From Actinoplanes derwentensis (GTDB lineage Bacteria; Actinomycetota; Actinomycetes; Mycobacteriales; Micromonosporaceae), in the NCBI RefSeq assembly GCF_900104725.1, contig NZ_LT629758.1:9831001-9895000 (forward strand): DNA of 64,000 nucleotides, given 5' to 3'. A program made the translations under genes and the position numbers. Shown in pieces: positions 923-16,049 of the stretch. The notes under the pieces were generated by a model. It was not told the origin of the DNA. It saw only the letters and a list, made by a program, of their open reading frames with translations, and made no database searches. How positions within the stretch are numbered: the stretch's first letter is position 1; the number at the start of each line of letters is the position of its first letter.

Positions 923-3900
923 GTGACATTTGTCGTGCCGGCCGGGTGGAAACGGTTCCTGCTGCCGCGTCGCGGTGACGCCCCGGCGTTCCCACAGGTC
1001 AAGCTCGCCGAGGTCACCGCCGCCGACGAGCTGCTGACCGCCTTCGACGGCGACGTCCGGGGCGCGCTCGGCCATCGGCTCACCCCCGGCGACCTGTCCG
1101 CTGCCGGGCACGCCCATCTCTCCGGCGAGGCCCCCTCCCCGCTCGGCGCGGCGGTCGTGGCCGCGGCGGTGGCCAACGTGCTGCAGTGGCCCCGGCAGGA
1201 GGAGCTGCTCGCCTTCACCGAGCTGTGGCGCTCCCGGCACGGGCTGCCCTTCGCCGCGGCGGCCGTCGCCGAGTTGACCACGATCTTCCACGGGAGTCAG
1301 CGGGTCGACCGCCCGATCACCCGGGCCGTGCCGGACCTGGACGCCGACGGCTTCGCCACCCGGGTTCTGCTGCCGATGGCCTTCCGGCTGCGGCGCGCCG
1401 TCGCCGCTGTCCCCGCGGGGGAGTATGCACAGGTCGTCGCCGCTCTGGCCGCGGTGCGCGGGCCGTCGCTGCTGCAGCGGGTGACCGTCTCGGTGCTGAC
1501 CCCCGACGAGACCGGGTGGGCCACCGACATCACCGGCGCGCTGCTGGCGGTCTCCGGACGGGACGGGCTGAAGGCCCTGATGCTGACCGTCGTCACCGAC
1601 GAGGCGGCGGCCGCCCGGCTGGCCGCCCCACTCAGCCCGTGGCAGGTGCTGAACTGGAACGAGGTCGTCTACACCTTCACCGCCACGCTCGGCCCGGCCG
1701 CCGCCCCGGCGCTGGCCCAGTGGCTCGACGCCACCACGACCGCCGCGCAGCTGCGGCGCAGACTGCTCACCCTGCTGACCACGATCGGTGGCGACGCGGC
1801 CTTCACCGCCCTGCTCGTCCGGCTCGACCAGCCGGACGTGGCCGCCGCGATCGCCGATTCGGCCGGTCGCTCCCCGGCCCGGGCCCTGCGGCTGCTGGCT
1901 GAGGCGCCGGTCGGCGACCGGCTGCTGCGCAACCACCTGGCCAACCATCGTGACCTCGCCGACGAGGTCCGGCCCCTGCTCACCGACGAGGCCGCCGGCC
2001 GGTTCGACGCCGCCCACGCCGTGCTGACCGCGGTCGGCGGCGACGTGGCCGGCCCCGCCGACCTGCCGCCGATCCTGGTCAGCCCGCCCTGGACCGACCC
2101 GGTCCCGCGCAAGCCCCTGGTCGTCACCGGCCTGATCGGCGACGACGCGCCCCAGGTGGAGTGGGCGCCGGGTGAGCGGGAGAGCTGGGGCGACGGATCC
2201 TGGCCCGCCCGGCACGGTGGCTCCCGCGACTGGGCGACCATCGCCGCCGACTTCGGCACCAGCCGGGCCAACCCGTGGCACGAGACGTTCTTCTTTCTGC
2301 AGGGCCCCGACGAGGTGACCCTGTCCCGGATCACCGGCTGGCGCCCGGAGTGGACCCACTATCTGGACGACTGGGGTCCCGAGTTGCTCGCCCGCTACCA
2401 GGCCGACGCCGTCCCGGCCCTGGTCGCGGCGGCGAAACGCACCCCGGTCGCGGGCGCGCCGGTGCTGCTCCCGGCCGCCACCGCCGAGGTGGCGCTGCTG
2501 ATGGCCGGATGGCTCGCCAAGTCCCGCGCGATCCGCACGACAGCCCTGGCCTGGTTCGCCCGCCACCCGGCGTTCGCCGCCCGCGCCCTGATCCCGATCG
2601 CCGTGGGCAAGGTGGGCAAGACCCGGACCGAGGCCGAGGCCGCGCTGCGTGTCCTGCCCCGCGACGAGGTCCTGACCGCCGCCGCCGGTCACGGCCCGGA
2701 GGCCGTCGCGGCGGCCGAGGAGATCCTGGCCGTCGATCCGGTGACGATCCTGCCCAAGGTCATCCCCGCGGTGCCCGACTGGGCGAACCCGGCGGTGCTG
2801 CCCCCGGTCCGGCTCACCGGCGGTCGCGGCACGCTGCCCGCCGACGCCGTCCGGCACCTGCTGACCATGCTCGCCCTGTCCCGTCTCGACGGCGTCTACC
2901 CGGGCCTGCCCCTGGTCGCCGCCGAGTGCGAGCCGGCCGACCTGGCCGAGTTCGCCTGGGTCCTGTTCACCGAGTGGCGCGAGGCCGGCCATCCGGCCAA
3001 GGCGAGCTGGCCGCTCGACGCCCTCGGCCTGCTCGGCGACGACGAGACGGTCCGGCGGCTGGCCCCGGTGATCCGCGCCTGGCCCGGCGAGGGCGGCCAC
3101 ACCCGCGCGGTCACCGGGCTCGACGTGCTCGCCACGATCGGCACCGACGTGGCCCTGATGTACCTCAACGGCATCGCGCAGAAGGTCAAGTTCAAAGGCC
3201 TGAAGGAGCGTGCCGAGGAGAAGATCGCCGAGCTCGCGGCCGGGCTCGGGCTCACCAGCGAGGAACTGGCCGACCGCCTCGTCCCCGACCTGGGCCTCGG
3301 CGAGACCGGCAGCCTCACCCTGGACTACGGGCGCCGCACCTTCACCGTCGGTTTCGACGAGCAGCTCAAGCCCTACGTCACCGATGCCGGCGGTAAAAAG
3401 CTCAAAGCCCTTCCCAAGCCTGGTACGCAGGACGACCCGGTCCTCGCCCCGGAGGCCTACCAGCGGTTCACCGCCCTGAAGAAGGACGTTCGCGCCATCG
3501 CCACCGACCAGGTGCGCCGACTGGAACGGGCGATGGTCGACCAGCGCCGGTGGACCGGCGCCGGCTTCCGGCAGTTCCTCGCCGGGCATCCGCTGCTACG
3601 GCACCTGGTCCGGCGGCTCGTCTGGGTGCGCTTCGACGAGGCCGGGCGCCCGGCCGGTGGGCTGCGCCTGGCCGAGGACGGCAGCCTCGCCGACCGCACC
3701 GACGAGACCGTCACCCTGCCCGACGACGCCCTGATCGGGATCGGTCACCCACTGCACCTCGGCGACGACCTGGCCACCTGGGTCGAGTTGTTCGCCGACT
3801 ACGAGATCCTCCAGCCGTTCGACCAGCTCGGCCGGGGCACCGAACCGCTCACCCCGGAGCGGGCCGCCGGATTCACCGGCCGCACCGTGCCCAGCACCAC

Positions 3901-4192
3901 ACTGCTCGGGTTGGAACGGCGCGGATGGCGGCGCGGCAGCCCGCAGGACGGCGGCGTGCAGGGCTGGTTCGAACGCGACGTTCCCGGCGCCCGGCACCTG
4001 GTGGTGGCGATCGACCCCGGTATCCCGGTCGGCGCCGTCGACGTCCTCGGTGACCAGACGATCGAGGCGATCTTCGTGGAGCCGGCCGCCGCGTACCACT
4101 GGTCCCGCCGGGACCAGGACGACCACATCCGCGAACTCGATCCGATCACCGCCGCCGAGGCGCTGCGCGAACTATCCGAGGTGCTCCCGTGA
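923..4192 (+). CDS. DUF4132 domain protein (YehI/MolR-like), first gene of a MoxR-VWA operon
   Basis: A 1089-residue protein starting at GTG 923, preceded by GGAGAG at 911. No signal peptide or membrane segment is visible. The N-terminal ~800 residues are Ala/Leu-rich helical hairpins resembling HEAT-type repeats. The C-terminal ~290 residues match DUF4132 as I know it: YGRRTFTVGFDEQLKPYV, GKKLKALPKPG, then RLERAMVDQRRW, GFRQFLAGHPLLRHLVRRLVW and HPLHLGDD. In Escherichia coli the DUF4132 protein YehI is encoded near yehL-yehM-yehP-yehQ, and the next four genes here are the same families. Biochemical role is unknown; a scaffold or substrate-recognition subunit is an inference. The stop overlaps the next start by four bases (GTGA). 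Confidence 0.8.
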   Translation: MTFVVPAGWKRFLLPRRGDAPAFPQVKLAEVTAADELLTAFDGDVRGALGHRLTPGDLSAAGHAHLSGEAPSPLGAAVVAAAVANVLQWPRQEELLAFTELWRSRHGLPFAAAAVAELTTIFHGSQRVDRPITRAVPDLDADGFATRVLLPMAFRLRRAVAAVPAGEYAQVVAALAAVRGPSLLQRVTVSVLTPDETGWATDITGALLAVSGRDGLKALMLTVVTDEAAAARLAAPLSPWQVLNWNEVVYTFTATLGPAAAPALAQWLDATTTAAQLRRRLLTLLTTIGGDAAFTALLVRLDQPDVAAAIADSAGRSPARALRLLAEAPVGDRLLRNHLANHRDLADEVRPLLTDEAAGRFDAAHAVLTAVGGDVAGPADLPPILVSPPWTDPVPRKPLVVTGLIGDDAPQVEWAPGERESWGDGSWPARHGGSRDWATIAADFGTSRANPWHETFFFLQGPDEVTLSRITGWRPEWTHYLDDWGPELLARYQADAVPALVAAAKRTPVAGAPVLLPAATAEVALLMAGWLAKSRAIRTTALAWFARHPAFAARALIPIAVGKVGKTRTEAEAALRVLPRDEVLTAAAGHGPEAVAAAEEILAVDPVTILPKVIPAVPDWANPAVLPPVRLTGGRGTLPADAVRHLLTMLALSRLDGVYPGLPLVAAECEPADLAEFAWVLFTEWREAGHPAKASWPLDALGLLGDDETVRRLAPVIRAWPGEGGHTRAVTGLDVLATIGTDVALMYLNGIAQKVKFKGLKERAEEKIAELAAGLGLTSEELADRLVPDLGLGETGSLTLDYGRRTFTVGFDEQLKPYVTDAGGKKLKALPKPGTQDDPVLAPEAYQRFTALKKDVRAIATDQVRRLERAMVDQRRWTGAGFRQFLAGHPLLRHLVRRLVWVRFDEAGRPAGGLRLAEDGSLADRTDETVTLPDDALIGIGHPLHLGDDLATWVELFADYEILQPFDQLGRGTEPLTPERAAGFTGRTVPSTTLLGLERRGWRRGSPQDGGVQGWFERDVPGARHLVVAIDPGIPVGAVDVLGDQTIEAIFVEPAAAYHWSRRDQDDHIRELDPITAAEALRELSEVLP

Positions 4193-5400
4193 CCCGTTCC
4201 ACCCCGCCGAACTCCGCTTCGTCCTTCGTTTCGCCTTCCGGGGCCTCCGCTGCTTCGCCTTCCGGGGCCTCCGCTGCTTCGCCTTCCGCGTCGTCCTCCG
4301 CTTCGTCCTCCGCGCCGGAGCACGTTCAGCGGCCGCCGGCCGAGGTTCGCTACGCCGACGAGCTGGCTCGTCTCCGCGCCGCCGACGACGCGCCCACCCC
4401 GCCCGGCTGGGCGCTCAGCCTCCGGGCCGCCCGTGCGTTCGTCGTCGGCGACGAGAACCTCGGCGTCACCCGCAAGTTCGTCGGCGACCCGTCACTCATC
4501 GACCGGGCCCTGGTCAGCCTCGCCACCAGTCGCGGTCTGCTGCTCGTCGGCGAGCCCGGCACCGCCAAGTCGCTGCTGTCCGAACTGCTCGCGGCGGCCG
4601 TCAGCGGCGACTCGACCCTGACCATCCAGGGCGGCGCGGCCACCACCGAGGACCAGATCAAATACTCGTGGAACTACGCCCTCCTCGTCGCCGAGGGCCC
4701 GACCGAGCGGTCCCTGGTCCCGGCACCGCTGCTGCGCGGCATGGCCCACGGCAAGGTGGTCCGCTTCGAGGAGATCACCCGTTGCCCCCTCGAAGTGCAG
4801 GACTGCCTTCTCTCCCCGCTGTCCGACCGGGTCCTCGCGGTGCCCGAGCTGCCCGGTGCCGCGAGCATGGTGTTCGCCCGGGAAGGCTTCAACATCATCG
4901 CCACCGCGAACACCCGCGACCGGGGTGTCAACGACATGAGCTCGGCGCTGAAACGGCGCTTCAACTTCGAGACGGTCTTCCCGATCGGCGACTTCGACAC
5001 CGAACTGGCTCTGGTCGAAACCGAGGCCGGCGCCCTGCTGCGGCGCTCCGGCGTCACCGCCCCGCCCCGTCGTGACGTGCTCGAAGTGCTGGTCACCGCG
5101 TTCCGGGAACTGCGCACCGGGCGTACCGGGCGCGGCGACGAGATGGAGAGACTGTCGTCGGTGATGAGCACCGCCGAGGCGGTGTCGGTCGCCCACGCCG
5201 TCGGGCTGCGCGGCTGGTTCCTCAACGGCACCGCCGGCACCACCACCGACCTGGTCTCCTGCCTGGCCGGCACCGCCGCCAAGGACAGCCCGGAAGACCT
5301 CGCGAAACTGCGCCGCTACCTGGAGCAGCACACCTCGTGGCGGTCCGGACCGCAATGGCGTGAGCTGCGGGACGCGCGCCGGGAACTGCCCGGCGGATGA
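4189..5400 (+). CDS. MoxR-family AAA+ ATPase (YehL-like)
   Basis: A 403-residue ATPase whose GTG start overlaps the previous stop. Walker A is GEPGTAKS (about 121-128), Walker B lies in VVRFEEITR (about 190-198), sensor 1 is the Asn of ATANT (about 241), and SSALKRRFNF (about 251-260) supplies candidate arginine fingers. MoxR ATPases typically remodel or activate partners that carry VWA domains, and a VWA protein is encoded two genes downstream. The first ~45 residues are an unusual Ser/Ala/Pro tail made partly by a tandem 24-bp DNA repeat. No signal peptide; probably cytosolic. Family assignment is strong, the substrate is unknown. Confidence 0.9.
   Translation: MTRSTPPNSASSFVSPSGASAASPSGASAASPSASSSASSSAPEHVQRPPAEVRYADELARLRAADDAPTPPGWALSLRAARAFVVGDENLGVTRKFVGDPSLIDRALVSLATSRGLLLVGEPGTAKSLLSELLAAAVSGDSTLTIQGGAATTEDQIKYSWNYALLVAEGPTERSLVPAPLLRGMAHGKVVRFEEITRCPLEVQDCLLSPLSDRVLAVPELPGAASMVFAREGFNIIATANTRDRGVNDMSSALKRRFNFETVFPIGDFDTELALVETEAGALLRRSGVTAPPRRDVLEVLVTAFRELRTGRTGRGDEMERLSSVMSTAEAVSVAHAVGLRGWFLNGTAGTTTDLVSCLAGTAAKDSPEDLAKLRRYLEQHTSWRSGPQWRELRDARRELPGG
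4231..4288 (+). repeat. In-frame tandem 24-bp repeat in the MoxR gene
   Basis: Two perfect 24-base units (4231-4254 and 4255-4278) and a third partial copy to 4288. Each unit is eight codons (SPSGASAA), so copy-number change would keep the frame and alter only the length of the N-terminal disordered tail. The following bases continue as a degenerate Ser/Ala run. Confidence 0.9.
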
Positions 5401-8045
5401 ACCTCACCGTCATCGGGGTCCGGCACCACAGCCCCGCCTGCGCCCGCCTGGTCGGCACCACGATCGCCGCGCTCCAGCCGGCGTTCGTGCTGATCGAGGG
5501 GCCCGCCGACATGAACGCGCGGATCGGTGAACTCCTGCTCGGCCACGACCTGCCGGTGGCGGTCTTCACCAGCTACCTCGACGAACAGCGGCGGCACGGC
5601 TCGTGGGCGCCGTTCTGCGAGTACTCACCCGAGTGGGAGGCCCTGCGCGCAGGCCACGCGAGCGGGGCGGAACTCCGGTTCATCGACCTGCCGGCCTGGC
5701 ACGAGGCGTTCGCCGACCGCGACAACCGCTATGCCGACGCCGAACTGCGCTACGCCGAAGCCGTCGACCGGCTGTGCACCGAGTTCGGCGTCGACAACAG
5801 CGACGCCCTCTGGGACCACGTCGTCGAGATGGCGCCGGCCGACGGTCTGGCCGACCGCCTGGCCGCCTACTTCGAGCTGATCCGCGGCGACACGGCGGCC
5901 GGCCCCTCCGACACGGCCCGCGAGGCCTACATGGCCGCCTGGCTCCGGGCCGCGTGTGCCGAGGCCGGTGACCGCCCGGTCGTCGCGGTCGTCGGCGGTT
6001 TCCACCGCCCCGCCCTCCTCCGCCTGGCCACCACACCGGCTGACCCGCCGATCCCCACATCCGCGCCCGCGCCCATCCCCGCGCCCACCCCCACCCAGAC
6101 TCCGGCCTTCTCGGCCGTGGCGCCTGCCGCCGCGTCGTCATCCCCGCCTGCTTCTGAATCTCCCGGCGCCGTGGCGGGTTTCTCCCCGCTCACATCCCGG
6201 TCTTCCGGGGCCGGCTCGGCGGCGGGCGGGGCCGGGTGGCCGGAGATTCCCGCTCCGCCGGACGGGGCTACCGCCGGGAGCTATCTGGTGCCGTATTCGT
6301 TCCGGCGGCTGGACGCGTTCGGGGGATACCAGTCGGGGATGCCGTCACCCGAGTACTACCAGCGGCTCTGGGAGAGCGGCCCGGAGGAAGCGGCCCGATA
6401 CCTGGTGACCGCCGTCGCGGGGCGGTTGCGGAAACGCGGTCAGCCTGTCTCCACGGCCGACCTGATCGCCGCCCGTGCCGGGGCCGAAGCGCTCGCACTG
6501 CTGCGCGGGCACGACCACCCGGCCCGAGTCGACGTGCTCGACGGGCTGGCGTCCGCGCTGGTCAGCGAAGCTTTGGAAGTGCCACTGCCGTGGGCGGTGC
6601 GCGGGACCGTCAGCGCCGGGCAGCATCCGGCCGTCGTCGAGATGACCGCCGCGCTCAGCGGGGAACGGGTCGGGCGGCTGCATCCGGACACCCCGCTGCC
6701 GCCGCTCGTCCACGCGGCCACCGCCGAACTGGAGCGGTACCGCCTCGACGAACCCGGCGAACACACCGCCGACCTCACCGAGGCGCACGGCCGTACCGTC
6801 AGCCGGGTCCTGCACCGCCTGCGGGTCCTCGGGGTGCCGGGCTTCCGGCGTGACGCCGGGCCGGCCACCGGCATCGACCCGGTGCTGCGGGAACGATGGA
6901 CCACCACCGCGCACGAGCACCGGCTCGCCGCACTCATCGAGGCCGGCGGCTACGGCCCGACACTGGAGGCCGCCACCGCCGCCCTGATCACTCAGCGCAT
7001 CGCCGGATCGTCCGGAGACCTGGCCCGGCTCGCCGACGCGCTCTTCGACGCGGCGCTCAGCGGGGTCACCGACCTCGGCACCGATGTCCCCGCCCTACTC
7101 GAACGCGGTGTCGCCGCCGGGAGCGACCTGGCCGAACTGGGCCGGGTCCTGGCGATCACCCTGGCTCTGTGGCGGCACGACCGGCTGCTCGGTACCGCGG
7201 GCAGCGACACCCTCGGTACCGTGATCGCCGCAGCCACCCGCCGGATCCTCTGGCTGTCCGAGGGCTGGCACGCGGCCGGAGCACCCGCCGACCGGACCCG
7301 GATCGCCGCCGTCGTGGCGGTCCGCGACGCGGTGTTGCACGCCGGGGCGGTGGGCGTCGACCGTACCGCCGCCGTTGAATCAGCCGGCCGGATCGCCGCC
7401 GACCGCGCCGCACCGCCGGACCTTCGCGGCGCCTTCTACGGCCTCGGCCGAACCCTCCTCGCCGCCACCGCACCACCCGCCGGCCTTGCGCCTGCCGTTC
7501 CCGCTGGCCTTGAGCCCGTCAGCCTTGAGCCCGCTGGCCTCGTGATCCCGGCGGACTCGGTGGCCGCTGACGATCCGCCCGTCGCGCCCGGTGGTTCGCC
7601 GCCCGGTCCAGGCCGTGGCGGGGGCTCCTCGGGCTCCGGTGGGAGCGGGGAGCCTTTTCCGGCGCCGGATCATGCGGTTCGGGGAGCGTTCGCGGCGGGG
7701 ACCGCGGGGGACTGGCTGGCGGGGCTCTTCGGGGTGGCCCGGGAGCCGGTGCTCGCGCCGGACGGGATCCTCGACCTGCTCGACGATCTGATCAGCGGGT
7801 TCGCCGCTGAGGACTTCCTGGTGGCGTTACCGGCGCTGCGGCAGGCGTTCGAATATTTTCCGCCGCGGGAGCGGGCCACCATCGGTGACCGGTTGCTGGC
7901 CCGGCGCGGGCTCGCCGGATCGGGGCGTGACCTGCTGCGGGCCACCGGCGATCCGCGGCTGGTGGCGGCCGGGATGGCGCTGGACGAGACCATCGAGCAG
8001 CGACTCGTGCGAGCGGGGCTGATCAGCTTGAGGGAGACGGCATGA
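5397..8045 (+). CDS. DUF5682 family protein (YehM-like)
   Basis: An 882-residue protein starting at ATG 5397 and overlapping the ATPase stop by ATGA. The N-terminus IGVRHHSPACARLVG followed by AFVLIEGPADMN (residues 6-40) is the hallmark of the family. A Gly-x-x-His-His motif, a helix, then a strand ending in Glu resembles TraB/EreA/ChaN-type proteins, so a metal-dependent hydrolase-like fold is possible but unproven. The N-terminal ~200 residues and the region from about 290 (YLVPYSFRRLDAFGGYQSG) look ordered. They are separated by Pro/Ala-rich linkers near residues 218-285 and 695-760. The last ~120 residues (DGILDLLDDLISGFAAEDFL and onward) form a helical tail common to these proteins. Operon position supports a role with the MoxR and VWA partners. 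Confidence 0.8.
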   Translation: MNLTVIGVRHHSPACARLVGTTIAALQPAFVLIEGPADMNARIGELLLGHDLPVAVFTSYLDEQRRHGSWAPFCEYSPEWEALRAGHASGAELRFIDLPAWHEAFADRDNRYADAELRYAEAVDRLCTEFGVDNSDALWDHVVEMAPADGLADRLAAYFELIRGDTAAGPSDTAREAYMAAWLRAACAEAGDRPVVAVVGGFHRPALLRLATTPADPPIPTSAPAPIPAPTPTQTPAFSAVAPAAASSSPPASESPGAVAGFSPLTSRSSGAGSAAGGAGWPEIPAPPDGATAGSYLVPYSFRRLDAFGGYQSGMPSPEYYQRLWESGPEEAARYLVTAVAGRLRKRGQPVSTADLIAARAGAEALALLRGHDHPARVDVLDGLASALVSEALEVPLPWAVRGTVSAGQHPAVVEMTAALSGERVGRLHPDTPLPPLVHAATAELERYRLDEPGEHTADLTEAHGRTVSRVLHRLRVLGVPGFRRDAGPATGIDPVLRERWTTTAHEHRLAALIEAGGYGPTLEAATAALITQRIAGSSGDLARLADALFDAALSGVTDLGTDVPALLERGVAAGSDLAELGRVLAITLALWRHDRLLGTAGSDTLGTVIAAATRRILWLSEGWHAAGAPADRTRIAAVVAVRDAVLHAGAVGVDRTAAVESAGRIAADRAAPPDLRGAFYGLGRTLLAATAPPAGLAPAVPAGLEPVSLEPAGLVIPADSVAADDPPVAPGGSPPGPGRGGGSSGSGGSGEPFPAPDHAVRGAFAAGTAGDWLAGLFGVAREPVLAPDGILDLLDDLISGFAAEDFLVALPALRQAFEYFPPRERATIGDRLLARRGLAGSGRDLLRATGDPRLVAAGMALDETIEQRLVRAGLISLRETA

Positions 8046-9160
8046 CCGACGCCGGACTGGAACGATGGCGGCTGGTCCTGGGCGAACCCGCCGGTGGCAG
8101 CCTCGGGGAACCCGGCGGTGACGCAGCCGCCCGGGACGCGGCCCTGGACTGGCTCTACGGCCGCGACGGCGAACTGGACCGGCGTGACATCCGGCGGCGC
8201 CAGGGCGGTTCCGGCCCGTCCCAGATCACCACCGTGGACTGGCTCGACGACATCACCCGGCTGTTCCCGAAGGAGACCGTCGAACGTCTGCAGCGCGACG
8301 CCGTCGAACGGTACGAGATCGACGACATCGTCACCGACCCGAAGGTCCTCGAACGGATCGAGCCGAACCCGTCCCTGCTGCGTGCTGTGCTCCGCACCAA
8401 GCATCTGATGAACCCCGAGGTGCTGCGGCTGGCCCGGCGGATCGTCGAAGCGGTCGTCCGCGATCTGATGGAACGGCTCGCCACCGAGGTCCGGCAGAGT
8501 TTCTCCGGCGCCCGGTCCCGGCGGTCCAGCCGGTTCAAACAGGCCCGCGACTTCGACGCCCGGCGCACGATCCGGGCGAACCTCGGCAACTACCGGCCGG
8601 ACGAAGGGCGGATCTATGTCGAGACGCCGTACTTCACGTCCCGGACCCGGCGCCAGCTCACCCAGTGGCAGGTGATCCTGCTCGTCGACCAGTCCGGGTC
8701 GATGCTCGACTCGGTGATCCACTCGGCGGTCACGGCGGCCTGCCTGTGGGGGCTGCCCGGGGTGCGTACCCATCTGATCGCCTTCGACACCGACGTCGTC
8801 GACCTCACCTCCGACGTCAGCGACCCTGTCGAACTGTTGATGAAGACCCAGCTCGGCGGGGGTACGGACATCGGGCGCGCGGTCCGGTTCGCGGCTCAGC
8901 TCGTCGAGCAGCCACGACGAGCGATCGTGGCGGTGATCAGTGACTTCTACGAGGGCGGATCGGAGGCGACCCTGGTGCGGGCGGTGCGGGAACTCGTCGA
9001 GCAGGGCACGATCGTTCTCGGTCTGGCGGCTCTCGACGAACAGGCGGATCCGGCGTACGACCGGGCCTGTGCCCAGCGACTCGCCGACGTCGGCGCCTGG
9101 GTCGGCGCGATGACTCCGGGTGAACTGGCCGCGTTCGTCGCCGAGCGGGTCGGCCGATGA
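8042..9160 (+). CDS. VWA domain protein (YehP/CoxE-like)
   Basis: A 372-residue protein coupled to the previous gene by ATGA. The C-terminal half is a von Willebrand A domain with an intact MIDAS: DQSGS (about 216-220), Thr in GGGTDIG (about 275) and an Asp in VISDFYEGG. The N-terminal ~200 residues are helical and charged (ALDWLYGRDGELDRRDIRRR; VDWLDDITRLFPKETVERLQ), as in the adaptor regions of VWA partners of MoxR ATPases. No signal peptide or membrane segment, so a cytosolic metal-dependent protein-binding subunit is expected. Its MIDAS probably binds Mg2+ and a carboxylate of the client or of another subunit. Confidence 0.88.
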   Translation: MTDAGLERWRLVLGEPAGGSLGEPGGDAAARDAALDWLYGRDGELDRRDIRRRQGGSGPSQITTVDWLDDITRLFPKETVERLQRDAVERYEIDDIVTDPKVLERIEPNPSLLRAVLRTKHLMNPEVLRLARRIVEAVVRDLMERLATEVRQSFSGARSRRSSRFKQARDFDARRTIRANLGNYRPDEGRIYVETPYFTSRTRRQLTQWQVILLVDQSGSMLDSVIHSAVTAACLWGLPGVRTHLIAFDTDVVDLTSDVSDPVELLMKTQLGGGTDIGRAVRFAAQLVEQPRRAIVAVISDFYEGGSEATLVRAVRELVEQGTIVLGLAALDEQADPAYDRACAQRLADVGAWVGAMTPGELAAFVAERVGR

Positions 9161-11478
9161 GCCTGCCGGTACGCGCCGACCTGCTCGCCCTCGACGACGC
9201 CGCTCTCGCCGCACTCGCCAACCGGGGCCTGGTGAAACGGGCCGCCCGGGAGGTCGAGCGCGAATCCCCGCTGCTGTCCGCCCGGCAGACCACGATCGTG
9301 GCCGGCTGGCCCGACGGCATTCACACCGAACTCCCGGAAGGCGGCCTGGACCGGGGCACCTGCTCGTGCGGCGCGACCGGGGTGTGCCGCCACCTGATCG
9401 GCCTGGTCTTCGCCTACCAGCACGTCTCCACCGCCCCACCATCCGCCGCGTCATCGTCGGCCGCCACGCCGTCCACCGTGTCGCAGTCCGCCGTCGCGGT
9501 CCCGACGGCCGAGCCGTCCGTTGCCGCGTCGGCCGCCATCCAACTGGCCGCCACCACGTCGGACGCCGGTGAGTCGTCGCCTGCCGGGTCGCCCGCCGCG
9601 GAGAAGCCGCCTGCCAGGGTGTCCGTGTCGTGGTCGCCCGGAGCGTTCAGCGACGCTGATCTGGTCGGCCGGATCGGGGCACGGCTCGTCGACGCGGCCC
9701 GCCGGGCCGAACGTGGCGGATACACCGCCCGGATCCGGCGCGGACCGGTTCCGGTGGCCGAACTACCCGCGGCGACGGTCCGGTTCCTGGTGCCGAACGA
9801 TCTCGGATACGTGCACACCGACGCCAAAGCCGGTGTCCGAGACGATGTGATCGCCCTGGCCGTCTGGGCGTTCCGGGCCGCCGACGAGCAGCAGCCGGGC
9901 GCCGACGACTGTGTGGTCGACGTCGGCGGGTCACGAACCGGGGCCGCCACCTCCGATTCCGGGCTCGAACAGGTGGTGGAGTTCGCCGCCGAGGTACTGC
10001 GGGCCGGTGCCGTACACGCGGGTGCCGGGCTGGCCGCGATGGCCGCTGGGCAGATCACCGCCCTGGAGAAGAGCAGCCTGCGGTGGCCGCTCGACGCCGT
10101 CACCGAACTCGCCGGTCAGCTCGCCGCCTACCGGGATCGCGGCGCTCGTTACTCCCCGGACGTACTCGCCGATCTGATCGCCGAGTTGTTCGCCCGGCAT
10201 CGTGCCGTCATCGCGGGCGGCGGCACGGCCGTGCGTTCCCGGGTGCTCGGTACGGAGGAGGCGGCCGAGACCCCATTGCGGAGAGTACGACTGGACGGCC
10301 TCGGTGCCCGAGTCACCGCGGTCGACGACGAACGCCGGGTCGAGATCTTCCACGGCCAGGCAGCCAGTGGTGTGGTCCTGGTGTCACACCGGCAGTGGAC
10401 CGCCACCGACGACGGCCCGGCCCTGTCGAGACGCCGCCTGGCCGGTGCCACGATCGCCGCGCTGGCCGCCGGAACCCTGGTGACCGAATCCGCGATCCGC
10501 AGCGCCAGCCGTTCGGTGCGCCTGACCGCCAGCCGCGTCGCCAAGTCCACGGTGACCGCCTCGACCGGCGCCTGGGAACACCTGCCATCCGCCTTGCGGG
10601 TGCATGACTATGCGAAGTTCGCCGCCGAACTGGACGCCATGCCACCCCGCCCGGTCCGCGCCCGGGTGCGAGCCGACCTGGTCCGCGTCCTGGAGATCGC
10701 CGAGGTCGGCGAGAGCCACTACGCGCCCGGAGCCCAGCGCCTGACGGTGCAGATCCGCGACAGCCTGGGCAACACGGCCACGGTGGTGGCGACGCACTCG
10801 GCGGTGGCTCCGGCCCGCCTGGACGCGGTGGCCGCCGCCCTGAACGGCACCCGGGGCCGCCCCCGCTACGTGGCCGGCAGCATTCACCGCAGTGGCGGCG
10901 GCTTGGTGATCGACCCTTACGCGATCGCCGCCGACGGCCCACCGGTGGTCCCCGACCTGGCTTCCCCTGCCGACTTCCCCACCTTGACGGTCACGCACCC
11001 CGCCGGGCCACCAGCCGCCTCATCGGCGCTGCCGGCTGCGGATGACGGGTTGTCGAGCGGGGATGTCCTTCCGGTGAGTGCTCCGCATCCAGCCGCAGCT
11101 TCGGACATGGCGTTGCCGGTTGTGGAAGGCGAAGGACGATTGGGCGGGAGTGGTGCTCCGGGGGGTGAAGTCTGTGGTGGGGTGGAACCCGGAGCCGCTT
11201 CGGTCGACGACGGGACGACGGATGTGCTGGCGGCTGTGGTGGCGGCCGCCCGGGAAGTCTTGGCCGAGGCCGCGCACAGTGGGCTCGCCCATCTGCCGCC
11301 GGCTTATGCCGAGCGGCTGGGGACCGCCCGTGGCTCACTGGCCGGGGCCGGCCTGCATCGGGTGGCTTCGGCGTTCGGCGAACTGGCCGCCCGGATCAGC
11401 CCCGACCCGGGTATCGAGACCGCCCAGGCCTGGGTCGACGCCTACCTGCGGGTGAGTCTCGCAGCCGATCTCCTGTGA
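9157..11478 (+). CDS. SWIM zinc-finger protein (YehQ-like)
   Basis: A 773-residue protein, ATGA-coupled to the VWA gene. The SWIM motif CxCx5CxH is at residues 69-79 (CSCGATGVCRH). SWIM fingers bind DNA or protein. The rest consists of several apparently ordered segments divided by Ala/Ser/Pro-rich linkers (about 90-150 and 605-690). A long central part contains LRRVRLDGLGARVTAVDD and YAPGAQRLTVQIRD, of unknown fold. It is the last of the five coupled genes; the next gene has its own Shine-Dalgarno. Family identity is well supported by motif and context; the ligand is unknown. Confidence 0.82.
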   Translation: MSLPVRADLLALDDAALAALANRGLVKRAAREVERESPLLSARQTTIVAGWPDGIHTELPEGGLDRGTCSCGATGVCRHLIGLVFAYQHVSTAPPSAASSSAATPSTVSQSAVAVPTAEPSVAASAAIQLAATTSDAGESSPAGSPAAEKPPARVSVSWSPGAFSDADLVGRIGARLVDAARRAERGGYTARIRRGPVPVAELPAATVRFLVPNDLGYVHTDAKAGVRDDVIALAVWAFRAADEQQPGADDCVVDVGGSRTGAATSDSGLEQVVEFAAEVLRAGAVHAGAGLAAMAAGQITALEKSSLRWPLDAVTELAGQLAAYRDRGARYSPDVLADLIAELFARHRAVIAGGGTAVRSRVLGTEEAAETPLRRVRLDGLGARVTAVDDERRVEIFHGQAASGVVLVSHRQWTATDDGPALSRRRLAGATIAALAAGTLVTESAIRSASRSVRLTASRVAKSTVTASTGAWEHLPSALRVHDYAKFAAELDAMPPRPVRARVRADLVRVLEIAEVGESHYAPGAQRLTVQIRDSLGNTATVVATHSAVAPARLDAVAAALNGTRGRPRYVAGSIHRSGGGLVIDPYAIAADGPPVVPDLASPADFPTLTVTHPAGPPAASSALPAADDGLSSGDVLPVSAPHPAAASDMALPVVEGEGRLGGSGAPGGEVCGGVEPGAASVDDGTTDVLAAVVAAAREVLAEAAHSGLAHLPPAYAERLGTARGSLAGAGLHRVASAFGELAARISPDPGIETAQAWVDAYLRVSLAADLL

Positions 11479-12033: not shown

Positions 12034-12840
12034 TCAGCTGAGGCTGACGGCCTGGTCGACGCTGGTTTCGTACCGGCCCAGGAAGATCGGGTCGCGGGCG
12101 GTCAGGACATCAGCGGCGGCTTTCACGGCGGCTCCGTACTCGCGGACCTCCCCGCGTACCCACATCTGTTTGAAGACCCGGACAGAGGAGTCGCCCACGC
12201 CGGTGGCTTCGATGCCCTGTTCGCGGCAGAGGGTCACGGCTCGGGGCAGGTGGAAGTCCTGAGTCACGACGATGGCCTCGCGTACGCCGAAGATCTTGTT
12301 GGCTCGGGAGCACGAGTCGTAGGTGTCGAAGCCGGCGTGGTCGAGGGCCACCCGGTCGGCGGGGACCCCGTTGGCCACCAGCCAGTTCTGCATGGCGCCG
12401 GGCTCGTCGTAGGCCCAGCGGCCGTGGTCGCCGGAGACCAGGATCGCCTTCACCTTTCCGGCTGCCAGTAGTTGGCGGGCGATCTCCAGGCGCGCGGCGA
12501 GGAAGGCCGACGGCTGGCCGTCCGCACCGACCTGAGCGCCGAGGACCAGGGCGACAGGGGCGGCGGGAACGGAGGCGGCGTCATAGATGTGACCGTCGGC
12601 GGCCGAACGTATCCACTGGGAACAGCCGAGGACGACAGCCACCGCGACGGCCATGCCCAGCGCGCCCACCGTGATCAGGCGGCGCAGGCGCCGGGCGCTG
12701 AAGAACGCGGCGATCCGGGTGAGGAGTGCGGGGAGGCGAGGCGCGACGCGGGAGAAGCGCGCGGGGAGGTGAACCGCGACCCGGCTGAAGCGCGCGGCGG
12801 CGCGGGCGGAAAGGGTGGTGAGGGCGGGTCGCTTCGGCAC
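12034..12840 (-). CDS. SanA/YdcF-like DUF218 membrane protein
   Basis: About 268 residues from GTG 12840. Alternative in-frame ATGs at 12876 and 12885 would overlap the start of the divergent GNAT gene; none has a good Shine-Dalgarno. A basic N-terminus with imperfect repeats (ARFSRVAVHLPARFSRVAP) precedes one membrane segment (LITVGALGMAVAVAVVLGC). The extracytoplasmic DUF218 domain follows: VALVLGAQVGADGQPSAFL, AILVSGDHG, DEPGAMQNWLVANGVP and VTQDFHLPRAVTLCR. SanA of Escherichia coli and relatives affect envelope barrier function (vancomycin sensitivity). The reaction is not known. Confidence 0.8.
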   Translation of the reverse strand: MPKRPALTTLSARAAARFSRVAVHLPARFSRVAPRLPALLTRIAAFFSARRLRRLITVGALGMAVAVAVVLGCSQWIRSAADGHIYDAASVPAAPVALVLGAQVGADGQPSAFLAARLEIARQLLAAGKVKAILVSGDHGRWAYDEPGAMQNWLVANGVPADRVALDHAGFDTYDSCSRANKIFGVREAIVVTQDFHLPRAVTLCREQGIEATGVGDSSVRVFKQMWVRGEVREYGAAVKAAADVLTARDPIFLGRYETSVDQAVSLS

Positions 12841-12874
12841 CGGGCCGAGGATGCCAGACCTGGTCAATGGCACC

Positions 12875-13636
12875 ATGACGGCCATGATCGAGATCGCTGA
12901 CCCGTTGATCCGCTGGGCCTTGCACGCACGGGGCGCGTGCCGGTGGGAGCGATCGGGCGCGGTGGTCGTCGCCTGCCCGGAACTGGCGCACTGGGACCGG
13001 CTGGTGACGAGCGGCGAACCGGCGGCGGTGGCGGACCTGCTGAGGGTGGTGCTGGCGGAGACGGGGGAGACGTTCCGGCCGTTCGGCACCGAGGAACTGA
13101 TCACCGAGGTGGTCGCCCGGCTGCCGGAACTGGAGGTGAGCGCCAGGTTCGCCTGGATGGAGACAACCGTCCCGGTGAAGCGGGTGGAGACGACCGCGCG
13201 GGTGAAACACGGGGAGACGGCGACGCGGATTCCGTCGAGTGGGGATGACGGTGGGGGACCGGTTTGGCTCACCGAAGCGGACTGGCCCGCGGTGGCCGAG
13301 TTGATCCGGGAGGCCTATCCGGATTCGTATGCCTGGCCGGGGGACCCGGATGTGCGGCGCTGGGCCGGCATCCGTGGCACGGACGGTGAGCTGCTGGCGG
13401 TGGCTGCGGAGGCGTGGTCGGCGCCGGAGGTCGGGTTCCTGTCGGGAGTGGCGACCCGGCCGTCCGCGCGGGGCCGCGGCTTGGGGGCGGCGATCTGCGC
13501 TTTCACCGCGAACGAGCTGCTCGACGGCCGGGAACGGGTGGCGCTGCTGGTCGACTACGGGAACACGGCGGCGGTGGCCACCTACACACGGCTCGGGTTC
13601 ACGATGCGCCGGGTCGCGGCCGCCCGGCGTTCCTGA
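12875..13636 (+). CDS. GNAT-family N-acetyltransferase with extra N-terminal domain
   Basis: About 253 residues from ATG 12875 (or 250 from ATG 12884); neither has a good Shine-Dalgarno. The C-terminal half is GNAT: GFLSGVATRPSARGRGLGAA contains the acetyl-CoA loop RxxGxGxA, and ALLVDYGNTAAVATYTRLGF is motif B. The N-terminal ~120 residues (IRWALHARGACRWERSGA) form a separate region seen in some actinobacterial GNATs. An odd linker with imperfect VKxxETT repeats (residues about 100-120) joins them. The gene is divergent from the SanA-like gene, with start codons nearly superimposed. Confidence 0.75.
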   Translation: MTAMIEIADPLIRWALHARGACRWERSGAVVVACPELAHWDRLVTSGEPAAVADLLRVVLAETGETFRPFGTEELITEVVARLPELEVSARFAWMETTVPVKRVETTARVKHGETATRIPSSGDDGGGPVWLTEADWPAVAELIREAYPDSYAWPGDPDVRRWAGIRGTDGELLAVAAEAWSAPEVGFLSGVATRPSARGRGLGAAICAFTANELLDGRERVALLVDYGNTAAVATYTRLGFTMRRVAAARRS

Positions 13637-13745
13637 GAAAGCCGAATCGAGAAGGCCGGTCCGGAGAAAGGCCGAATCGAGGGAAGACGATCGGGGGGAT
13701 ATGGTGCCCGGCGGCCCCTGGGACGCGACCGCCGGACACCGGCTT
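13637..13745. other. Convergent intergenic gap with short direct repeats
   Basis: Between the ends of the GNAT and GH3 genes. GCCGAATCGAG occurs twice (about 13641-13651 and 13671-13681) within slightly longer imperfect repeats. No rho-independent terminator with a T-tract is evident. Confidence 0.4.
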
Positions 13746-16049
13746 CTAGGAGATCCGGAACTTCGCGGCGAGCAGGGACGACGGCCGCGAGTCCGGGCCG
13801 ACCAGCAGTTCGAAGTCGCCGGCTTCGACGACCCGGGTCGCGGTGGCGTCGACCAGGGTGCAGTCGGCGGCCGCTACCGACAGGGCGACCGTGACACTCT
13901 CCCCGGGTGCGACGGTGACCTGCCGGTACGCCTTCAGTTCCCGGCTCGCCCAGGTCACGCTGGTGACCAGGTCGCTGACGTAGACCTGCACGGTCTCCAG
14001 CGCCGGACGAGTGCCGGTGTTGGTCAGCCGCACGGTGGCCCGCACGGTCCCGTCGGCGGTGACGTCGGGTTCCTCGATGCTGAGCCCGTCGTAGGTGACG
14101 GTCGTGTAGCTGAGCCCTTCCCCGAAGGCGAAGAGCGGATCCTGGGTGAGGTCGGCGTACCGGGCGCCGTGCTGCCCGCGCACCTGGTTGTAGAAGACCG
14201 GCTGCTGTCCGGCGTGCCGGGCCGCCGAGATGGGCATCCGCCCACTCGGTTCGATCAGGCCGAGAAGTAGTTCGGCGATGGCTTGCCCGCCGCGCATGCC
14301 GGGGTTGAACGCCTGCACGATCGCGGCCGCGGAGAGCGCCGACGGCGGTAGGGCGTGCGGTTTGCCGTCGACCAGCACCACGATCATCGGTGTGCCGGTG
14401 GCGGCGACCGCGTCGAGCAGCGCGATCTGCCCGCCCTGGAGTTCCAGGGTGGCGGTGGACTTGCCCTCGCCGGTCAGGTTGACGGTGTCGCCGACGACGA
14501 CGATCGCGTAGTCGGCGGCGGCCGCGAGGGAGGCCGCGGCGGCGACCTGAGCGGGAGAGGCCGGGACGGCCTGGGAGATCGCCGGCCGGGGCTGCCCGTC
14601 CGGGAACGTCTCGCCCGCCGGGTCCGGTACGAGCTGTTCGATCGCGACGGCCGGGTCGAAGTCCAGGGTCCATCCGGACGGCAGCAGCGCGCGCAGCCCG
14701 TCGAGGACGGTCGACGTCAGGGCGCGCGGGTGCCCGCCGGGCATCCAGTCGACCTGCCCGGAGTCGCCGGCCCAGTCGCCGAGCTGCGCGGACACGTCGT
14801 CGGCGTTGGGTCCGAGGAGCGCGATCCGGCCGGGAAGCGCGATCCGGCCGGGATCCGGGATCCGGTCGGGGTCCGCGATCCGGCCGGGGTCCGCGATCCG
14901 GCCGGGGGAGGTCAACGGCAGAACCCCGTCATTACGCAGCAGTACGAGGGACCGGCGCGCCACTTCCAGGTTGAGCGAGGTGTGGGCCGCGCATCCGATC
15001 ACTTCCCGCTGACGGGCGGCGTCCGGGGTACGCGGGTTCTCGAACAGGCCGAGTTCGAATTTCAGGCGCAGGATCCGCCGTACGGCCGCATCGATCTCGG
15101 TCTCGGACAGCGACCCGCGGCGGACCGCTTCTTGAGCGCCCTCGAAGAAGCCCGGCGTCGTCATGATCAGGTCGTTGCCGGCCTGCACGGCGACCGTCGC
15201 CGCTTCGGCGTGGTCGGCGCAGACCTTCTGTTCCCAGACCATCCGGCCGACGTTGTCCCAGTCGGTGACCAGCGTGCCGGTGAAGCCCCACTCGTCTTTG
15301 AGCACGTCGTTGAGCAGCCATCGGTTGGCGGTGATCGGCACGCCGTCCATCGACTGGTAGCCGAGCATGAAGACCCGGCAGCCCTCCCGGGCGGCTCGTT
15401 CGAACGGTGGCAGGAACCAGGAGCGCAGTTTGCGCCGGCTGATGTCGGCCTCGCTGGCGTCCCGGCCGCCCTGGGTCTCGGAGTAGCCGGCGAAGTGTTT
15501 GGCGGTGGCCAGGATCGCGGTCGGGTCGGTGAGGCCGTCACCCTGGTAGCCGCGGATCATCGCGGCGCCGAGTTCACCGATCAGGTACGGGTCCTCGCCG
15601 AACGTCTCGTCGACGCGTCCCCAGCGCAGGTCGCGGGTGATGCAGAGGACCGGGGAGAAGGTCCAGTGCACGCCGGTCGCGGAGGCTTCCACAGCGGTGG
15701 CCCGGCCGACCTTCTCGATCAGCGCCGGGTCCCAGGTGGCGGCCATCGCGAGCTGGGTGGGGAAGACGGTGGCGCCGGGCCAGAAACCGTGGCCGTGGAT
15801 GCAGTCCTCGGCGGTGAGCAACGGGATCCGCAGCCGGGTCCGGGTGACCAACGTCGCAGCTTCGGCGAGCTTCGCCGGGGAGGTGTGCAGGATCGATCCG
15901 GCGAGCTTGCCGAGCACGATCTCGGGCAGGTCCAGCCGGGCGTCGAGCTGGAGCATCTGGCCGGCCTTCTCCGGCAGCGTCATCCGGCCCAGCAGGTCCT
16001 CCACCCGTTCCGGCACGCCCAGCGAGGGGTCCTGATATGGCAAGGGCAT
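13746..16049 (-). CDS. Glycoside hydrolase family 3 beta-glycosidase
   Basis: 767 residues from ATG 16049, with GGGAGAAGC upstream on the minus strand. No signal peptide, so probably cytosolic. The N-terminal GH3 barrel has EDCIHGHGFWPGATVFPTQ, KHFAGYSE (about 184-191) and the catalytic nucleophile Asp263 in TLVTDWDNVGR. The second alpha/beta domain begins near 370 (LVLLRNDGVLPL) with LLGPNADD. A fibronectin III-like C-terminal domain (AFGEGLSYTTVTYDGL, VQVYVSD, LKAYRQV) completes the beta-glucosidase/beta-xylosidase layout. It hydrolyses terminal beta-glycosides of imported oligosaccharides; exact sugar unknown. An insertion of about 25 residues built from (R)I(A/P)DPG repeats sits at about 383-408. 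Confidence 0.92.
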   Translation of the reverse strand: MPLPYQDPSLGVPERVEDLLGRMTLPEKAGQMLQLDARLDLPEIVLGKLAGSILHTSPAKLAEAATLVTRTRLRIPLLTAEDCIHGHGFWPGATVFPTQLAMAATWDPALIEKVGRATAVEASATGVHWTFSPVLCITRDLRWGRVDETFGEDPYLIGELGAAMIRGYQGDGLTDPTAILATAKHFAGYSETQGGRDASEADISRRKLRSWFLPPFERAAREGCRVFMLGYQSMDGVPITANRWLLNDVLKDEWGFTGTLVTDWDNVGRMVWEQKVCADHAEAATVAVQAGNDLIMTTPGFFEGAQEAVRRGSLSETEIDAAVRRILRLKFELGLFENPRTPDAARQREVIGCAAHTSLNLEVARRSLVLLRNDGVLPLTSPGRIADPGRIADPDRIPDPGRIALPGRIALLGPNADDVSAQLGDWAGDSGQVDWMPGGHPRALTSTVLDGLRALLPSGWTLDFDPAVAIEQLVPDPAGETFPDGQPRPAISQAVPASPAQVAAAASLAAAADYAIVVVGDTVNLTGEGKSTATLELQGGQIALLDAVAATGTPMIVVLVDGKPHALPPSALSAAAIVQAFNPGMRGGQAIAELLLGLIEPSGRMPISAARHAGQQPVFYNQVRGQHGARYADLTQDPLFAFGEGLSYTTVTYDGLSIEEPDVTADGTVRATVRLTNTGTRPALETVQVYVSDLVTSVTWASRELKAYRQVTVAPGESVTVALSVAAADCTLVDATATRVVEAGDFELLVGPDSRPSSLLAAKFRIS
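14818..14907 (-). repeat. In-frame 18-bp degenerate tandem repeat inside the GH3 gene
   Basis: Five to six copies of an 18-base unit around GCGATCCGGCCGGG encode repeated RIADPG-like hexapeptides between the GH3 barrel and the second domain. Copies differ at a few bases, and 18 bases keeps the reading frame. Confidence 0.85.

Follow-up and report, generated by a model that had tools for sequence, protein, structure and literature searches.

What might a five-gene operon do in which a MoxR-type AAA+ ATPase and a von Willebrand factor A (VWA) protein are accompanied by a DUF4132 protein, a DUF5682 protein and a protein with a SWIM-type zinc finger? Such an operon lies at positions 923-11478 on the plus strand of a 64,000-nucleotide stretch of the Actinoplanes derwentensis genome (contig NZ_LT629758.1, positions 9,831,001 to 9,895,000), which we call the window. 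Its five open frames are joined by four consecutive 4-base overlaps between neighbours, and the frame coordinates together with Pfam bear out the single unit that an earlier note, made from the sequence alone, had described; none of the five proteins reached an NCBIfam cut-off. The set is an established operon without an assigned function, already visible as such, and not a new association. What is new here is the assignment of DUF5682 as a probable enzyme, together with a definition of the core of the system and its variants. The reading that we favour, tentatively and at somewhat less than an even chance, is that the window set is the YehI/L/M/P/Q system and forms an ATP-driven chaperone-type complex around a putative hydrolase.

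In Escherichia coli K-12 the same five families stand in the same order (yehI-yehK-yehL-yehM-yehP-yehQ), with the small yehK inserted, as the parallel drawn earlier had implied. Identity between the window and E. coli proteins is 63% for MoxR, 58% for VWA, 35% for DUF5682, 30% for DUF4132 and 27% for the SWIM protein. The first value places the window ATPase in the YehL group, a named MoxR subfamily (PMC3893208); copies on E. coli plasmids show ∼63% identity to it as well, across 89% of the query. E. coli carries as extras, besides yehK, an upstream pseudogene yehH with DUF4132-like pieces and a gene for a WGR protein, yehF, whereas a single DUF4132, and no counterpart of yehK, yehH or yehF, was seen in the stretch of the window that was read.

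By profile comparison the closest relative found for DUF5682 is ChaN of the TIKI superfamily (ChaN, erythromycin esterase EreC, TraB/GumN, HopBA1). The alignment to ChaN spans 172 columns with a probability of 70 and an E-value of 4e-5, and three unrelated controls gave 0.8 or less; the alignment to the Ere profile was not significant. Structure comparison of the predicted model gave a possible likeness to HopBA1 and a weaker one to EreC. His10, Glu34 and His203 were each present in 66 of 66 aligned sequences and align with ChaN H35, E59 and H206, and Arg175-Glu176 is invariant alongside them. These landmarks (HH after strand 1, Glu, RE..M, G..H) are also visible in the 12 matches listed. The likeness to the superfamily lies in the ChaN profile alignment and the His, Glu, Arg and His landmarks. 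DUF5682 differs in that it has no Glu in the GE(x)H position, carries two His in succession and extends into a long, helical C-terminal region. The complete catalytic 2His/2Glu arrangement was not found in DUF5682, because it lacks the Glu that shortly precedes the first His in EreC (E47) and RRSP (E3900): the window has Val8/Arg9 at this place, and Arg9 occurs in 64 of the 66 sequences. From these predictions DUF5682 looks like a putative hydrolase of TIKI type, from a family whose enzymes cleave esters or proteins. The earlier note had named the family correctly and left it unassigned, overlooking the enzyme likeness that the invariant residues and the ChaN profile suggest.

To follow the set in other bacteria, we used the best 80 of at least 585 relatives (at least 593 matches) from a scan of genomes with a MoxR alignment. 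They span actinobacteria, proteobacteria, Myxococcota, cyanobacteria, planctomycetes, Bacillota and spirochaetes. Linkage was counted in the 59 loci flanked by at least 9 kb in each direction; presence was scored on the plus strand from seed-profile matches, and gene order was left unscored owing to over-long frames in GC-rich DNA. All five families were present on one strand in 52 of these 59 loci. Five others lacked a plus-strand DUF4132 (one, L079, has it on the opposite strand), one had DUF4132, MoxR and DUF5682, and one had DUF4132 and MoxR only. Because the 80 loci were chosen by likeness to the window MoxR, the 52/59 figure describes linkage within the YehL type and not in all MoxR proteins. 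In a sample of 149 genomes from the phylum to which the window belongs, DUF5682 was detected in 10 and DUF4132 (over cut-off) in 6; five held both, and in all five, a copy of each lay within 8 kb. Divergence of the families was correlated across loci for all ten pairs (r 0.894-0.982, lowest for the DUF4132 pairs; no control family was included). DUF5682 and VWA form a single open frame in 4 of the 79 loci that hold both (L016, L051, L074 and L077), and also in L134. The linkage, the correlated divergence and the fusions support well the earlier suggestion that the families make up one machine. Partly against it stands the behaviour of DUF4132 in the window's own genome, where seven of the eight DUF4132 genes stand apart from the other four families: BLAST of the 18-kb stretches around the seven others (L018-L024) gave no match to these families. 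Therefore DUF4132 also occurs alone and is the most independent part. The Actinoplanes rectilineatus locus (L028), whose MoxR is the closest to that of the window among the matches listed (89%), shows no DUF4132 within its 21 kb.

Two further architectures were observed. Seven loci of the window's phylum (L125-L131, presumably actinobacterial) carry MoxR-DUF5682-VWA sets without a DUF4132 match; a SWIM motif precedes MoxR in four of the seven, and both upstream proteins tested belong to DUF5691. In L025, from the window's own genome, and in L135 the order is VWA-MoxR-DUF5682. The L025 set (5529-10756, at ∼9.498-9.504 Mb) is thus a second one in the same genome, with no DUF4132 or SWIM matches. 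MoxR, VWA and DUF5682 recur in all three architectures, and these three are the common core. The frames flanking the sets of L125-L127 resemble, by eye, succinyl-CoA ligase beta and a B12-binding protein.

The two accessory proteins were characterized mainly by prediction and motif. The DUF4132 protein is predicted to form a HEAT-like solenoid at residues ∼27-785 (AlphaFold2 mean predicted local distance difference test (pLDDT) score 90.3; the best structural matches are HEAT-type solenoids), followed by a C-terminal DUF4132 domain (Pfam, 824-1002). Its copy number varies: among the 59 loci, counts that take in partial frames gave one frame in 28, two in 16, three in 6, four in 4 and none in 5. 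The fifth protein of the window has no significant Pfam match. A CxC...CxH pattern, the mark of a SWIM zinc finger, is present in 58 of 59 aligned fifth-gene sequences, the window included; Pfam SWIM matches 47 of the 59 at E-values up to 0.1, the window protein not among them. As far as its sequence goes, this protein is defined by its finger only.

The ATPase and its partner appear intact, as had been noted. The window MoxR has Walker A (GEPGTAKS), Walker B and KRRF, and the alignment also identified sensor 1 and the arginine finger region. Across YehL-type proteins (window included, L025 excluded) GxxGxxK[ST] and [AG]T[AG]N were found in 87/87 and KRRF in 84/87; stricter patterns scored lower (GEPGTAKS 76/87, strict Walker B 59/87). 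The metal ion-dependent adhesion site (MIDAS) DxSxS was found in 78/78 VWA proteins with the same inclusions, and the stricter DQS[GA]S in 61/78. In known MoxR-VWA pairs, the VWA protein is described as capturing a target peptide while ATP drives remodelling (PMC7159879). DUF5682 accompanies the pair in each of the three architectures and is sometimes fused to VWA, and we therefore propose a TIKI-type enzyme under the control of MoxR and VWA. By spending ATP, the MoxR ring with its VWA adaptor would load DUF5682, open it or switch it, which would restrict the activity of its site to times of need; the DUF4132 solenoid (or DUF5691) would recruit or sense the target, and the SWIM protein would anchor the complex on nucleic acid or protein. 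Chemically, an ester or peptide bond would be hydrolysed. The ATPase motifs and landmark residues are observed and the folds predicted; DUF5682 as the client, its catalysis and its substrate are what we infer. If this is right, an enzyme class joins the clients of MoxR-VWA chaperones. A more far-reaching version, which we regard as doubtful, treats YehL-type systems as TIKI proteases or esterases gated by ATP, in which a single-active-site DUF5682 is switched on a HEAT/SWIM platform. If true, it would describe regulated hydrolysis unlike that of the chambered AAA+ proteases, shared by E. coli, actinobacteria and clostridia and missed so far because both the client and the scaffold are DUF families.

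The same pair could instead serve to equip a target enzyme with its metal or cofactor, in the manner of CoxD/CoxE and NorQ/NorD, with the ChaN-like domain of DUF5682 binding a cofactor such as haem or iron and cutting nothing. The window VWA is of the CoxE type, and the set shares with CoxD/CoxE, NorQ/NorD and RavA/ViaA a MoxR ATPase and a CoxE-type VWA with MIDAS; it differs by adding DUF5682, DUF4132 and SWIM, and no known target gene recurs in the flanks. In one DUF5691-type locus (L128), the SWIM-DUF5691-MoxR-DUF5682-VWA set is followed on its 3' side by a gene for a molybdenum hydroxylase with MoCoBD domains (12636-15236), but this hydroxylase had no match in the 574 frames that flank the 80 loci. 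E. coli molR is, we assume, the yeh DUF4132/WGR region. It was named for molybdate use, to judge from the title of a reference. NorQ/NorD are reported to be needed for iron insertion (PMC9976466), and ChaN to bind haem (PMC7979712). MoaC was sought in the genomes of 60 selected loci of the 80 (two batches, 25 and 35; L028 not included) and found in 24/25 and 30/35. Four of the six genomes without a match (L061, L089, L094 and L097) hold all five families, so judged by genome content the system does not need the molybdenum cofactor. L061 is an isolate by its title; L089, L094, L097 and L101 are drafts assembled from metagenomes, in which a missing gene counts for little, and L094, with a right flank of <9 kb, was called complete from the first hidden Markov model round. 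Of the other two negatives, L101, on a short contig, shows no DUF4132, and L080 carries DUF4132 and MoxR but none of the other three families. The metal-centre assembly raised in the earlier note is therefore weakened as a dedicated molybdoenzyme role; cofactor insertion survives as an unlikely alternative, because ChaN binds haem.

With the ATP-driven hydrolase complex still preferred, we considered a conflict system in which a MoxR-vWA switch frees a DUF5682 effector when the cell is attacked by phage or otherwise, comparable to the ternary systems described by Kaur et al. (2020). A conflict role has been proposed for MoxR-vWA pairs that have a third component (PMC7159879), and HopBA1, of possibly similar fold, is a type III effector (PMC7979712). 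The likeness to these systems (VMAP, iSTAND, bpMoxR, TERNS3) lies in MoxR, vWA and a third component, but their effectors vary, whereas the extra parts of the window system are constant and the effector-like part is not swapped. Pfam detected no VMAP or iSTAND in the five proteins, and bpMoxR reached 22.4 bits over 49 residues, below the 27-bit cut-off. The only PADLOC-DB 2.0.0 matches of the five proteins, at E-values of 0.0088 and 0.0097, were to unrelated families. In E. coli the three genes examined are near-universal and chromosomal: yehL, yehM and yehI were present at ≥80% coverage in 5160, 5166 and 5177 of 5426 genomes (∼95%), and 2 of 5183 yehL places were on plasmids. One 30% match was found in a viral collection, and one of 50,697 phage records gave a match, 44% identical. 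A plasmid copy from Iodobacter (L015, 3424-20828), which has two DUF4132 genes and a SWIM protein split over two frames, adjoins insertion sequence (IS) elements and a type I restriction system. Among 123 flanking proteins of 20 lower-GC loci, by contrast, the defence-type matches shown were mostly single proteins, and the flanks, judged without a comparison set, looked mostly ordinary. Phage defence, the first role offered for this set, is thus not supported, and we consider a conflict system quite improbable. A resistance transposon is reported in the DUF4132 region (metG/DUF4132/yeh) of a large E. coli ST131 sublineage (PMC9334617), which suggests that the region is dispensable there.

A role in the DNA-damage response, where DUF4132 and SWIM would tie the ATPase to damaged DNA under SOS-type induction, appears quite improbable as well. 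It draws on reports that molR is among LexA-regulated genes (PMC11039860, PMC4576408) and that in Deinococcus, genes for DUF4132 and WGR proteins are upregulated when DdrO is depleted (PMC8533742); of seven DUF4132 proteins scanned, one carries a fused WGR, and YehF, a PF05406 (WGR) protein, precedes the E. coli set. A LexA-type box is not recurrent, however. GAACN4GTTC occurs three times in 52,460 upstream bases (0.057 per kb vs. 0.015 over whole loci), two of the three upstream of MoxR within the region of the preceding gene. The gamma- and alpha-proteobacterial LexA patterns had no match in the upstream bases. In E. coli K-12 (L108), a LexA-type box before yehF at 1950-1965 has one mismatch, and 1.73 such matches are expected by chance in the stretch, where 3 were found. 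The SOS link reported for molR in E. coli is, judged by these motifs, not a feature that the loci share.

The literature searched gave no function for the set and, in the text available, no mention of DUF5682 or DUF5691, unlike DUF4132, which appears in three papers; subscription papers lay mostly outside the search, so a prior description is possible. No paper among the matches listed joined MoxR with Tiki, and in PMC2669436 the terms MoxR and erythromycin esterase co-occur. The putative DUF5682 active site (H10, E34, H203) makes the function of a near-universal E. coli operon directly testable.

Features of the operon in the window (positions count from the first base of the window)
Feature	Positions	Strand	Details
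DUF4132 protein (YehI type)	923-4192	+	1089 aa; Pfam DUF4132 3.5e-51
MoxR AAA+ ATPase (YehL type)	4189-5400	+	403 aa; Pfam AAA_5 4.4e-35
24-bp tandem repeat, 3.5 copies	4230-4314	+	codes part of the MoxR N-terminal extension
DUF5682 protein (YehM type)	5397-8045	+	882 aa; Pfam DUF5682 6.5e-94; AlphaFold2 mean pLDDT 84.2
DUF5682 N-terminal domain, TIKI-superfamily-like	5397-6044	+	residues 1-216; landmarks H10, E34, R175-E176, H203
CoxE-type VWA protein (YehP type)	8042-9160	+	372 aa; Pfam VWA_CoxE 5.3e-56; MIDAS DQSGS
SWIM-type zinc-finger protein (YehQ type)	9157-11478	+	773 aa; C69-x-C71...C77-x-H79

The least certain boundary is the start of MoxR. Its first ∼44 residues, which include the repeat, are of low complexity and cannot be aligned with relatives. 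A 4-base overlap is possible at 17 of the 42 DUF4132-MoxR junctions read, the window included, which makes the start at 4189 plausible.
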